Below, piece by piece: positions 2,249 through 22,232 of a stretch of DNA of 22,972 nucleotides. Within the stretch, counting starts at the first letter, position 1, and each line of letters starts with the position of its first letter. The DNA comes from a virus: positions 1 through 22,972 of IMG/VR virus record IMGVR_UViG_3300017523_000148; one strand, given 5' to 3'. A program made the translations under genes and the position numbers. A model generated the notes under the pieces. It worked only from the letters and a program-made list of their open reading frames with translations, searched no databases and had not been told where the DNA came from.

Positions 2249-3175
2249 ATGGACGAACAGACAGCTATGGAGTTCAAGGCACCCATGCCCGGCGAGGGCG
2301 ACATTCTCATCAAGGCCGAGGAGGGCCCCAACGGCGAGTGGATCGTATACCTCGAGGCCTCCCGGGAGACTCCGGATCAAGAGGGGGAGACCCTCGAATC
2401 GGGGGCACTGAAGAAGGCCACCGAGCACTTCCTCGAACACGGGGTCGTCTCGTGGGATCACATGCACAAGTCGGGCGAGCGAGACCCGAAGTACATCATC
2501 GGTGAACCCATCGATGTTCAGTTCACCGATGATGGACGCACACTAGTAAAGGCCCGGCTGTATCGCGAGAACAAGATCGCGCAGTCTTTGTGGGACAACA
2601 TCAAGTCCGGTGCGAAGCGGCTGGGTGCCAGTGTGGGTGGTGGAGTCCTCAAGAAGGCCGCCTCGAAGATCAAGCAGGTGGTGTGGGACGAGATCGCGAT
2701 CACCCACAAGCCGGTACACGATGCGACACTCGGAAACGTAAGCATGGTTCCGTTCGCCGAGTTCGCCAAGGCCGTCGAGTACTGCGACGGGTACTCTACC
2801 GCCATCGACATGGACTACGACATCAGCCACGAGACATACCTCGAGTCGATGTCAAATGGAATGCGAGAGCGCTACAAGGGAAATACCCTCATCAAGGCGC
2901 TCATGGCTGGCTCCGGGGTTGACGCCTCCCAGTTCGAGGGCGGCCGGGCGCTCACAGGTGAGAGCCTGCAGGGCGCGGTCACCAAGATCGATGAGGAAGA
3001 GCTTCGGGGCATCTATAAGTCGGTTATCATGGGGATGATCGACGGCTCTATCAAGAGCTACAACGACATGGTAAGCGAAGTTCTGGAAAAGGGGTATCCG
3101 GAGGAAGCCTCTCGACAGATCATCGAAACAATCGCAACAAACGCCTCCAGCGTTGCTGGGCAGTTGCGGGATTAA
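2249..3175 (+). CDS. Prohead (capsid maturation) protease
   Basis: A 308-residue protein matching the HK97 gp4-like (S78/U35) prohead protease pattern. These serine proteases are packaged in the procapsid and cleave capsid and scaffold proteins during maturation. Candidate catalytic residues are H71 in SWDHMH and S128 in LGASVGG, spaced like the His/Ser pair of HK97 gp4. They are followed by WDEIAITHKPVH, the expected strand after the catalytic Ser. The ATG at 2249 is chosen because AGGGGAGAG lies at 2237-2245; an upstream in-frame TTG at 2201 lies inside the terminator hairpin and is unlikely. The C-terminal extension is unusual: residues 216-240 are nearly the same as the N-terminal arm of the major capsid protein (19 of 25 identical), followed by about 68 helical residues. 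The scaffold-like gene follows after 17 bases. Confidence 0.85.
   Translation: MDEQTAMEFKAPMPGEGDILIKAEEGPNGEWIVYLEASRETPDQEGETLESGALKKATEHFLEHGVVSWDHMHKSGERDPKYIIGEPIDVQFTDDGRTLVKARLYRENKIAQSLWDNIKSGAKRLGASVGGGVLKKAASKIKQVVWDEIAITHKPVHDATLGNVSMVPFAEFAKAVEYCDGYSTAIDMDYDISHETYLESMSNGMRERYKGNTLIKALMAGSGVDASQFEGGRALTGESLQGAVTKIDEEELRGIYKSVIMGMIDGSIKSYNDMVSEVLEKGYPEEASRQIIETIATNASSVAGQLRD
2894..2968 (+). repeat. Capsid-arm-like segment within the protease gene (copy 1)
   Basis: Codons for protease residues 216-240 encode KALMAGSG, then VDASQFEGGRAL, then TGESL. The capsid gene at 4010-4084 encodes KALEAGSG, ADASGFTGGRAL, IPESL. Nineteen of 25 positions are identical with no gap. The match is clear at the protein level, while the codons differ often, so it is not a recent DNA duplication. 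Confidence 0.85.
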
Positions 3176-3192
3176 TCAATAGGGAGAAACAC

Positions 3193-3918
3193 ATGGGAAA
3201 GAATGATCAGGTCTCCGAAGAGGAGCTGGAGAAGTCTTTCACTGACGCTCTGGCTGAACTCAGTAAGGCCGTCGACGACAGTCCCGAGCTGCAAAAGGCG
3301 AAGGGCGACAAGATGTCCAAGGGCGGAAACAAGAAGCGGATGGCCAAAGGCGACGACGAGGAATACGAAGAGGAAGAAGGCGACGAGGAAGAAGAAGAGG
3401 ACGAGGGCGAGGAAGACGAGCCCGAGGCCCGCCAGAAGTCGCTCGAAGACCTCGAGGACGAGCTTCGAAAGAGCGAGGACGAAGATGTGGCGGGAGCCCT
3501 CGACGTTTCCCCGCTTCTGCAACAGCTCGTGAAGTCCATCAGCGGCCGCGACGAGCACCTCGAGGGTCGGCTTGACCGACTCGAGCGCATCGTCAAGGCG
3601 CAGGCCCGTGTTCTTGAATCACAGGCCGATCTGGCAAAGAGCACGCATGATGAGACCCGGCGCATCGCCCAGACGCCGGTTGGCACCAATAGCGTGTTCA
3701 GCCTGCAGAAATCTCGGTTCGACGAGCGCGACCTCTCCAATGTCGGTGGCAACGAGGTGAAGCTCGCTTCTTCGAAGTGGCTTTCCAAGGGCAAGATCGA
3801 CATCAATGAGGCCGGGCGCATCGAGTTCCGTGCCAATAAGGGTACGCTGTTCAAGAGCGGCGACCAACTCGACCAGAAGGTTGAGAAACTACTGAAGTCC
3901 GAAAAGGGGGATGAGTAA
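3193..3918 (+). CDS. Probable scaffold / capsid assembly protein (very acidic)
   Basis: A 241-residue protein lying exactly between the prohead protease and the major capsid gene, where tailed phages usually keep a scaffold. Residues 1-50 are helical and lysine-rich. Residues about 53-80 are an extreme Glu/Asp run. Residues 81-160 are charged and probably coiled-coil (LEDLEDELRKSEDED, then EGRLDRLERIV). The end (GDQLDQKVEKLLKSEKGDE) is a charged helix such as scaffolds use to touch capsid subunits. I recognise no sequence family, so the scaffold role comes from composition and position. The ribosome site AGGGAGA precedes the ATG. Its stop TAA (3916-3918) lies one base before the preferred start of the capsid gene, suggesting translational coupling. 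Confidence 0.65.
   Translation: MGKNDQVSEEELEKSFTDALAELSKAVDDSPELQKAKGDKMSKGGNKKRMAKGDDEEYEEEEGDEEEEEDEGEEDEPEARQKSLEDLEDELRKSEDEDVAGALDVSPLLQQLVKSISGRDEHLEGRLDRLERIVKAQARVLESQADLAKSTHDETRRIAQTPVGTNSVFSLQKSRFDERDLSNVGGNEVKLASSKWLSKGKIDINEAGRIEFRANKGTLFKSGDQLDQKVEKLLKSEKGDE
3905..3910 (+). promoter_or_regulatory. Ribosome binding site that decides the capsid start
   Basis: AGGGGG lies directly against an in-frame ATG at 3911 (no spacer) but 9 bases before a second in-frame ATG at 3920. Standard spacing favours 3920, which would remove three residues (MSN) from the N-terminus. Confidence 0.6.
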
Positions 3919-3919
3919 T

Positions 3920-5311
3920 ATGAACGGCACTGACACTTTCCTCAACTCCATTGATCAGGACTATTCGGGCTACGCTATGGCTCAGAGCGAGAGCCTCGAG
4001 ATGCTGAACAAGGCACTCGAAGCGGGTAGCGGAGCAGACGCATCCGGTTTTACCGGCGGTCGTGCGCTCATCCCCGAAAGTCTGGACAACACGCTTGTCA
4101 ACATCCTGTGGAACCAGGATGAGGCTGTCCTGTTCCAGCGGCTGAAGAAGCAGCCGATCAAAAGCCCCGTGCACCAGTGGGATGTCCGCGATGAAGTGGG
4201 CTCAAACGACGGTGCGTGGGTTCCCGAAGGCGGTAACTCCGAAGAGGCAGATCAGTCGATTGCCCGTAAGTTCGAGACCGCCAAGTACCTGCAGACGCTC
4301 CGCAAGGTAACCCTGCAGGCCTCGATCTCCAACATGATCGAGAACGCCATGGTGCTCGAGCAGAACGCAGGCACCCTCTGGATCATCCGTAACATCGAGA
4401 CCTCGCTGTTCTACGGAAACGACGACTACGTCTCCGAGCAGCCCAACGGTCTCAACGCCCAGATTCCGGTGACCAACATCCTCGACGCACGCGGCGCGAG
4501 CGCCGATAGCGCGACCTTCGAGAACATGGTCAACGAGGGCCAGCGGATCATCCGGGAAAACTTCGGCAAAGGTGACATCATGCTCATGTCGCCGAAGAAC
4601 ATGGAAGACTTCCAGCGGCTGATGCGTGACCGCATCCGTGTCGCACCCTCCGAGGGTGGCATGGGCGCTTACGTGTTCGACCGGTACCCGACTACGTTCG
4701 GTACCCTTGAGCTGCGCGAAGACATCTTCATTCAGGAGGGTGTAGCTCCTTCCGCATCTTCACTGACCTCCAAGGTTCCGGGTACGCCCACGTTTGCTGG
4801 TGGTGACATCTCAGCCGGTGGCTCGGGTAGCCAGTTCACCGCCGGTGACGCGGGCACTTACAGCTACAAGCTTGTGGCGCTCAACCGCTACGGTGACAGC
4901 GCAGCAACCTCCGCGCAAACGGTGACAGTAGCGGCCGGTGAGGAGGTTACCATCACGGTGAACCACGGTACCGCTCCGGCTCCGACCGCAATCAAGGTAT
5001 ACCGGCAGGACCCGGGTGGTTCCGAGCACCTCTACGCGTTTACCGTTGCCGATCCCGGCGATGGTAATACCATCAAAGACACCAACGCCCATCTTCCGGG
5101 TACGTCGGACGTCTACATCCTGACCATGGGCCAGATGTACGACGCCATCGAGTGGTTCCAGTTTCTTCCGCTCATGAAGTTCGACCTTTACCCCACGAAC
5201 GCGGCTGTCTATCCGTTCCTGATGCTCCTCTTCGGGGCACTGGCGCTAAAGAAGCCCGTTCAGCACATCCGCATCAAGAACGTGGCACCGAGTTCTCTCG
5301 GATGGTACTAA
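3920..5311 (+). CDS. Major capsid protein (HK97-like) with inserted Ig/Fn3-like domain
   Basis: A 463-residue protein placed after the protease and scaffold genes. The N-terminal arm (residues 31-55) has the KAL-AGSG and GGRALIPESLD pattern seen near the start of many HK97-fold capsid proteins. It continues with a P-domain-like stretch (residues 56-270) and ends with an A-domain-like close. Residues about 275-395 do not look like capsid fold: they are Gly/Ser/Thr-rich with GTYSYKLVALNRYGDSAATS, then TAIKVYRQDPGG and LPGTSDVYIL, the pattern of an Ig/Fn3-type beta sandwich. The capsid sequence then resumes with MYDAIEWFQFLPLMKFDLYP. Such a domain would probably face the outside of the shell. 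Only about 30 residues precede the conserved arm, so there is no long HK97-type delta domain, which agrees with a separate scaffold. ATG 3911 is the alternative start. A hairpin pair follows the stop. Confidence 0.88.
   Translation: MNGTDTFLNSIDQDYSGYAMAQSESLEMLNKALEAGSGADASGFTGGRALIPESLDNTLVNILWNQDEAVLFQRLKKQPIKSPVHQWDVRDEVGSNDGAWVPEGGNSEEADQSIARKFETAKYLQTLRKVTLQASISNMIENAMVLEQNAGTLWIIRNIETSLFYGNDDYVSEQPNGLNAQIPVTNILDARGASADSATFENMVNEGQRIIRENFGKGDIMLMSPKNMEDFQRLMRDRIRVAPSEGGMGAYVFDRYPTTFGTLELREDIFIQEGVAPSASSLTSKVPGTPTFAGGDISAGGSGSQFTAGDAGTYSYKLVALNRYGDSAATSAQTVTVAAGEEVTITVNHGTAPAPTAIKVYRQDPGGSEHLYAFTVADPGDGNTIKDTNAHLPGTSDVYILTMGQMYDAIEWFQFLPLMKFDLYPTNAAVYPFLMLLFGALALKKPVQHIRIKNVAPSSLGWY
4010..4084 (+). 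repeat. Capsid N-arm segment shared with protease (copy 2)
   Basis: Codons for capsid residues 31-55, counted from the ATG at 3920. This is the partner of 2894-2968, with 19 of 25 residues identical. Confidence 0.85.
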
Positions 5312-21424: not shown

Positions 21425-22207
21425 GTGGCAGGGCCATTCATTGAGTTGGTGAACAAAACACTTCCTAACCTCATCAATCGAGAGGGTAATGTTCATACCG
21501 CGCTCGTAGGCCGAGAGGATTTTACCCCGGAGTCGGTGATATCTGAGTCTTCAGATTTCAACTGTGGGGCCTTATGCAATGAGTTTGAGTTTGCTCGGAA
21601 AGTAACACAGTACTATGCAAGCGCACTCTGGATCGAAAACGCCGAGGGAGAGGAACTCGATGAATTGGTAATGAATCTGGTCGACCTGTCCCGTAGATCA
21701 CGGAGCGAGCCTGATTCGTTATACCAGAATCGGTTCAAGTTTCTAGTGGTTGCAAAGACAAACCCGCGTCGAACCACGAAGTGGGCGATCATTGATTCAA
21801 TCTCTCACTTCATCAATGACTCGAATCGGATCAATATCTTCGAGTTCGGATCGAGCTGGCCACAATTTGAGGTTAGAATCGAAAGTGAAGAGTTGGAAGA
21901 AGATGTATTGGTCTTAGATGATCCTACATTTGGATATCTGGACAGCTTCTATGTCAGCGGATTCGGAATCGGAGCTAATGTATCCTACATCAGCGAATTG
22001 ATCGACCGAATCAAAGCGGCCGGTGTTGACTCCAGTGTGACATTCATATCAAAAAACAAGGTGGACCTTACATCGAATATGTGGATCGGATCGGTACAAA
22101 TATATTTGTCTTCTGATGCCATCATTAGTGCTAACGTAGGGTACATATCGTCCTTGGATGACCCTACATTTGGATATCTGGACAGCTTCTATTTCGACGA
22201 ATCATGA
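21425..22207 (+). CDS. Tail protein I-like baseplate protein with duplicated C-terminal motif
   Basis: A 260-residue protein starting at GTG 21425 (site AAGGGG), directly after the J-like gene as in P2 and Mu-type operons. Residues 1-145 are helical and charged with EFEFARKVTQYYASALWIENAEGEELDELV and RTTKWAIIDSISHF, resembling the wedge part of gpI/XkdT-partner proteins. From residue 155 the protein differs: LDDPTFGYLDSFY occurs at residues 164-176 and again at 244-256, just before the stop. Between them lies IKAAGVDSSVTFISKNK, the strand-helix unit typical of the C-terminal end of this family. The C-terminal extension could connect the wedge to the fibre encoded next. Base composition is AT-richer than the head genes. 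Confidence 0.65.
   Translation: MAGPFIELVNKTLPNLINREGNVHTALVGREDFTPESVISESSDFNCGALCNEFEFARKVTQYYASALWIENAEGEELDELVMNLVDLSRRSRSEPDSLYQNRFKFLVVAKTNPRRTTKWAIIDSISHFINDSNRINIFEFGSSWPQFEVRIESEELEEDVLVLDDPTFGYLDSFYVSGFGIGANVSYISELIDRIKAAGVDSSVTFISKNKVDLTSNMWIGSVQIYLSSDAIISANVGYISSLDDPTFGYLDSFYFDES
21914..21952 (+). repeat. 39-base direct repeat, copy 1
   Basis: Encodes LDDPTFGYLDSFY. It matches 22154-22192 at 37 of 39 bases, the two differences being silent third-position changes (TTA/TTG and GAT/GAC). The copies start 240 bases apart, in the same frame. Confidence 0.9.
22154..22192 (+). repeat. 39-base direct repeat, copy 2
   Basis: Partner of 21914-21952, ending 15 bases before the end of the gene. 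It encodes the same 13 residues. Confidence 0.9.
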
Positions 22208-22232
22208 ATTGAGATGATAAGAGAGGTATAAA

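Follow-up and report, generated by a model that had tools for sequence, protein, structure and literature searches.

The region analyzed here raises the question of why a phage prohead protease should carry, beyond its catalytic domain, a near copy of the N-terminal arm of the capsid protein that it is predicted to cut. The window, that is, the complete stretch of 22,972 bases under study (IMG/VR record IMGVR_UViG_3300017523_000148), encodes a head-morphogenesis gene followed by the protease, scaffold and capsid genes and then by tail genes (Table 1). In this study, we show that the match between the protease tail and the capsid arm is real. Protease residues 216–240 (KALMAGSGVDASQFEGGRALTGESL, nt 2894–2968) and the capsid segment KALEAGSGADASGFTGGRALIPESL (nt 4010–4084) are identical at 19 of 25 positions without gaps, as the initial annotation of this DNA had reported. 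When the protease and capsid sequences are shuffled (300 shuffles), their best 25-residue match without gaps has 8.3 identities on average and never more than 10. Aligned locally with gaps, protease and capsid score 96, where shuffles average 38 (fitted p about 1e-6). Chance as the source of the match is ruled out by these shuffles together with the presence of the copy in 135 of the 136 loci described below. The nucleotide coordinates first given for the capsid segment are correct; its residue numbers, 31–55, apply to a start at ATG 3920 and become 34–58 with the ATG at 3911. As for the accompanying remark that the codons differ, codons are shared at 9 of 21 usable identical residues where 7.6 are expected from codon usage, giving no sign of recent DNA copying. 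Codon identity of copy and arm is likewise near expectation (0.50 against 0.43), and a recent DNA duplication or gene conversion is therefore rejected.

Table 1. Features of the protease–scaffold–capsid region (positions in the window)
Feature	Coordinates	Strand	Details
Prohead (head maturation) protease	2249..3175	+	308 aa; PHROG 1028 head maturation protease, E 1.2e-19; T4 gp21 fold
Protease catalytic domain, about aa 27–174, ending in F-A-K174 motif	2327..2770	+	Structure alignments span model residues 23–174
41-aa insert (aa 175–215) between K174 and the capsid-arm copy	2771..2893	+	Comparison of protease tails
Capsid-arm copy, aa 216–242, from K216; predicted auto-cleavage bond K216/A217 (after nt 2896)	2894..2974	+	
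C-terminal helical domain of protease, aa 249–308	2993..3172	+	Three helices, pLDDT mostly >90
Acidic head scaffold, 241 aa, with several L/V-x-K-[AS] sites	3193..3918	+	PHROG 15087 head scaffolding protein, E 4.8e-4
Major capsid protein, 466 aa	3911..5311	+	PHROG 752, E 2.4e-69; fold of SPO1 capsid 9vel
Capsid propeptide, aa 1–34, predicted removal at K34/A35	3911..4012	+	K34 conservation; phage 812 mature chain
Capsid N-terminal arm K34–N60, the segment copied in the protease	4010..4090	+	Sequence comparison

By its predicted structure the enzyme is a prohead protease of the T4 gp21/assemblin fold, with proteolytic activity on capsid and scaffold predicted; the model matches T4 gp21 (5jbl_B) with a Z of 11.3 and an rmsd of 2.6 over 128 residues, and a PDB search with the protease gave weak matches alone, which we judged spurious. 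Residues D43, H71 and S128 are invariant in 92 of 92 aligned homologues, and H71 and S128 are presumably catalytic, as in the family; K174 is present in 87 of the 92, the remainder having gaps there. The initial annotation had drawn its comparison with HK97-type proteases; the enzyme has the gp21/assemblin fold, and HK97 itself lacks the arm copy. The capsid protein is a major capsid protein (MCP) of the SPO1/phage 812 type (PHROG 752) by both sequence and fold, its nearest solved structure being the SPO1 capsid 9vel (Z 34.6 over 382 residues). Its arm matches PHROG 1028, the protease family profile, at E 0.05, and this was the first hint that the copy occurs across the whole protease family. 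The protease extends past its catalytic domain (aa 175–308), and AlphaFold2 predicts a confident catalytic domain, a disordered copy (pLDDT below 50 at residues 204–223 and 235–243) and a confident C-terminal helical domain, for which similarity to the capsid body is absent in relatives. The capsid N-terminal arm is likewise of low confidence in its predicted model. The structural comparison proposed in the initial annotation accordingly finds both segments predicted to be disordered in models of the single proteins.

Distribution of the arm copy among phages

Twelve annotated relatives were compared, comprising Herelleviridae of Bacillus, Enterococcus, Staphylococcus and Levilactobacillus, myophages of Pseudomonas, Morganella, Bordetella, Enterobacter and Aeromonas, and Thermus phages. 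In all of them the protease gene is followed by the scaffold and then the capsid gene, and the best match of every protease to its own capsid lies within the N-terminal arm; taken singly, the matches in Mecenats66 (p 0.005) and ENFP1 (p 0.001) are weak. The match was checked directly in phage K (protease against arm, z 12.2) and in Listeria phage LP-125 (score 115). For scans of larger collections the 13-sequence whole-family alignments were too diverse, and sub-family capsid alignments were used; a scan of genome contigs with alignment A6 returned a single fragment, and scans of IMG/VR with the capsid sub-alignments brought the total to 157 loci with both genes, 136 of them non-identical. The proteases at the 157 loci were picked by a catalytic-domain profile that excludes the copy. 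One of the capsid patterns used in the scans, LDTAMKT, reaches into the distal part of the arm; the sampling of loci is therefore partly dependent on the arm, yet independent of the protease.

In 135 of the 136 non-identical loci the protease tail matches its own capsid arm better than 200 shuffles do. Among the relatives of Bacillus phage SPO1 and Staphylococcus phage K that were sampled, nearly all have the copy, as this phage does, and the first finding that the initial annotation had named as counting against its idea, protease relatives that lack the segment, is not borne out. The single exception, L140, keeps LRKSL (a K/S site) and has lost the remainder of the copy. A 62% capsid relative of the window, L002, retains only KALMAGGGVNAGSFT, about 14 residues of the copy, before its helical end. 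The 41-residue insert before the copy is found in the window and in L001 and is absent in L154, L156, L157 and L160, in which the copy directly adjoins the end of the catalytic domain (FAEFAK/ALMAG).

The arm copy was not found in the protease of HK97 (z 2.1) or D3 (z −0.4), nor did T4 gp21 match the first 352 residues of gp23 (z 0.6), and a general feature of HK97-fold phages is rejected on these negatives, of which that for T4 covers those 352 capsid residues. In SU10, no separate protease is annotated between portal and capsid. A search of 50,697 phage records with one arm peptide of phage K found it 1137 times, in 588 records and hence about twice in each of these. The SPO1 and phage K arm peptides match essentially only capsid and prohead protease genes, and with the Touem01 peptide giving the same picture, the idea that the arm serves as a tag common to several head proteins was rejected.

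The copied segment and the predicted cleavage site

When each copy is aligned with its own arm on the capsid lysine, the two agree at the K in 94% of cases, at 75–87% at positions +1, +2, +4, +5, +7 and +9, and at 75–91% at +15, +16, +20 and +24; agreement is 31% or less upstream of the K and below 30% after +26. The P1 K is absent in 8 of 134 aligned mimics, in some perhaps through misplacement. For Staphylococcus phage 812, the mature MCP deposited as 9row has S25 as its first residue, right after K24, and 5lii lists the full precursor of this protein. Modelled chains of the SPO1 MCP comprise 434–445 of 468 residues, and the longest has the length of a chain starting at A24 after K23, a start that we infer from chain length. 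The equivalent of phage 812 K24, K34 in the window, is invariant across 13 MCPs, and the capsid maturation cut in this phage is predicted to fall after it. From the phage 812 chain, the SPO1 chain lengths and the limits of the agreement, the copied segment appears to be the cut-site lysine together with the mature capsid N-terminal arm, from P1/P1′ to about P26′.

The scaffolds of 133 relatives contain 639 sites of the form [LIVFM]xK[ASG] plus a hydrophobic residue against 37 in shuffles, a 17-fold enrichment, and the same motif occurs in the MCP body at 0.91-fold of expectation. The arginine and glutamate versions are not enriched in the scaffolds, [LIVFM]xE[AS] being depleted (0.52-fold). 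This pattern fits a protease that would cut after K in that context, with cleavage of the scaffold predicted. The scaffolds show no resemblance to the capsid arm (median z 0.28); that they are rich in the K motif and yet lack the arm suggests that the copy is more than a cut site, and it also suggests that cutting need not require the additional 26 residues. A resemblance limited to the cut site is rejected, given scaffold sites without the extension and a similarity that runs to about +26. In the protease, K22, K174 and K216 flank the folded core; further motif matches at K101 and K136 of the catalytic domain are probably within folded strands, and we do not propose them as sites of cutting.

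The main rival to the reading that we favor below would treat the copy as an extended self-substrate or pseudosubstrate; like our preferred reading, it would include self-cutting at K216/A217. Here, a product-side exosite would read the arm, and the copy, held in the active site of the precursor, would keep the enzyme off until copy and capsid are cut together in one timed step. In favor of this account, the copy starts at the lysine of the capsid cut site and, in the close relatives that lack the insert, lies directly after the catalytic domain; in L140 and L002 the junction is retained although most of the remaining copy is gone. Moreover, residues at the N-terminus of T4 gp21 block the enzyme until it has cleaved itself (PMC9958956). 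The scaffold motifs without the 26-residue extension speak against it, however, as do a copy that is disordered in the monomer model with no confident docking and the behavior of the catalytic domain described in the next section, and we consider this account rather unlikely.

Co-variation of the copy with the capsid arm

Among non-overlapping pairs of phages, the pairing of each copy with its own capsid beats the swapped pairing 45 to 13 (p 1.5e-5), and the advantage is larger at greater distances between the phages; in the closest pairs (capsid body distance below 0.2) the own pairing is no better than the swapped one (21% against 44%). In partial Mantel tests, the mimic correlates with the arm when both the catalytic domain and the capsid body are controlled for (r 0.33, where permutations reach 0.108 at most). 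With the catalytic domain alone controlled for, it also correlates with the capsid body (r 0.465), mostly via the arm. The arm does not track the catalytic domain given the mimic (r 0.056; permutation 99% 0.076), which argues against an exosite that reads the arm. These Mantel tests are weak, as distances saturate and the protease and capsid genes are adjacent, and their results lean weakly to a capsid-side partner, i.e. docking, over an exosite. Overall, copy and arm change together across phages.

This bears on the suggestion, made in the initial annotation, that the copy is the remnant of a gene fusion. In such a history an ancestral protease–capsid fusion or a partial gene duplication would have left a functionless arm behind the protease. 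The copy does stand where the capsid arm would be in a protease–capsid fusion, and both PHROG 1028 and PHROG 10 (a major head protein profile of 752 positions) match the capsid arm weakly. However, the copy is kept in 135 of 136 loci and across Gram-negative myophages, Herelleviridae and Thermus phages, it still tracks the capsid arm, and with codon identity near expectation recent gene conversion is not the reason for this; the remnant is disfavored and, in our view, improbable. About equally improbable is a third factor, in which a scaffold, a portal or a host chaperone would bind both arms in the cytoplasm or procapsid, with the copy recruiting the protease by way of that partner and not of the capsid lattice. 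It would explain the shared sequence past the cut site equally well, and T4 core proteins are described as reaching the prohead by a short core-binding targeting sequence (PMC7411985); yet the arm peptide is found essentially only in capsid and protease genes.

A putative propeptide modelled on the capsid arm

The reading that we favor, at roughly even odds, is that the protease tail is an auto-cleaved C-terminal propeptide that places the enzyme in the procapsid by imitating the capsid arm. The imitation is well supported, and the docking and the cleavage are what we infer from it. The propeptide would consist of a copy of the capsid cleavage junction and mature arm, with a small helical domain after it. 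During assembly of the procapsid, this copy may occupy, or compete for, the binding place of a capsid arm, and a limited number of enzyme molecules would thereby be anchored within the shell. After activation, the protease would cut itself at K216/A217, and probably at K174/A too, alongside the capsid arms and the scaffold; this would free the catalytic core to digest the scaffold, and the tail fragment might be left bound or be expelled. Both functional ideas of the initial annotation gain support in part. Self-cleavage is favored by a copy that starts at the lysine of the capsid cut and by the enrichment of the same motif in scaffolds, and docking by the roughly 26 residues that are copied past the cut and are absent at scaffold sites, although the two events themselves are predicted. 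L140 and L002, which lack most of the copy, count against the favored reading and suggest that the full arm is not always needed. The closest pairs with no advantage for the own pairing, the aligned mimics without a P1 K and the low model confidence of arm and copy also count against it.

The closest precedent for a propeptide of this kind is the protease of the giant phage SPN3US, whose C-terminal propeptide is removed by autocleavage and has been inferred to act in prohead targeting (PMC5694885, PMC7411985); according to the latter paper, truncation within this propeptide left the protease active in vitro, but in vivo the truncated enzyme was apparently not taken up into heads. SPN3US gp245, with its phiKZ counterpart, resembles the present enzyme in being T4-gp21-like with a C-terminal extension. 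It differs in cutting after A-X-E, whereas the matched junction here is K/A and not A-X-E, and the passages on its propeptide mention no resemblance to the capsid arm, whereas here the extension copies both capsid arm and cut junction. T4 shares with this phage the gp21 fold (5jbl) and the order protease, scaffold, capsid, but in gp21 the active site is reportedly blocked by the N-terminus of the enzyme (PMC9958956) and not by an arm copy at the C-terminus. The T4 capsid targeting sequence, like the proposed role of the copy, is a short prohead-entry peptide that is then cut by the prohead protease. It is about 10–20 residues long, N-terminal on its cargo and described as core-binding, whereas the tag here is C-terminal, about 26 residues long, carried by the protease and a copy of the capsid. 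In HK97 and D3, the prohead incorporates the protease, which trims the N-terminus of the capsid protein, and neither protease has the arm copy. Structure comparison also gives herpesvirus assemblin and this protease the same fold. The assemblin precursor enters the capsid by means of an extension at its C-terminus, from which the enzyme later frees itself by self-cleavage; that extension is the scaffold protein and not a copy of the arm of the capsid protein. We did not find a capsid-arm copy on a prohead protease described in the open-licence literature, outside which most subscription journals lie, and its novelty is likely but not proven.

The present finding bears on how, in large phages, prohead proteases enter the shell in the proper number, stay quiescent until it closes and are then released. 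It offers a precise element of about 26 residues, including a predicted cut bond, that can be tested in the well-studied laboratory and therapeutic phages SPO1, K, 812 and those of Listeria, and it yields a predicted scaffold cleavage motif as well as a tag that might serve to load cargo into such capsids. More generally, and somewhat more tentatively than the propeptide itself, an enzyme may here be recruited and counted into a compartment by a copy of the arm of the building block, cut at a like bond, which would represent mimicry within one virus across the Herelleviridae and related phages of Gram-negative bacteria and Thermus.

Insert and arm copy in the prohead protease

A 41-residue insert separates the catalytic domain of the protease from the copy of the capsid N-terminal arm and, among the window's close relatives listed, is common only to the window and the related virus locus L001. 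The protease of another related locus, L159, has at the corresponding place an insert shorter than these 41 residues. In the locus L140 (2595-3524), the sole such protease among those sampled, the arm copy has been lost and the K|S junction, the predicted cut bond, is kept; the copy was not recovered in either of the other two reading frames of that interval.

Features of the window
Feature	Position	Length
Protease insert	2771-2893	41 residues
Scaffold stop/capsid start overlap	3911-3918	
Direct repeat, first unit	21906-21969	64 bases
Direct repeat, second unit	22146-22209	64 bases

Repeat in the ORF at 21425-22207

This ORF contains a direct repeat (81%), both units of which encode LDDPTFGYLDSFY, the second forming the C-terminus.

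Scaffold and capsid

Sites of the form [LIVFM]xK[ASG]-hydrophobic number about five per scaffold, 17-fold over shuffles, in the window's scaffold (3193-3918) and 133 homologous scaffolds; this pattern is a likely cleavage motif for the protease family. The capsid start overlaps the scaffold stop (ATGAGTAA), which suggests translational coupling of the two genes, and an ATG at 3920, downstream of 3911, offers an alternative capsid start.

The 4.7-kb contig that carries a relative of the capsid (L170, 1-795) was placed in the bin of a Candidatus Heimdallarchaeota MAG, and this bin may be contaminated. Capsid residues 300-386 (about 4808-5068) match PHROG 19622 (esterase/lipase) and are probably an inserted beta-rich decoration domain.
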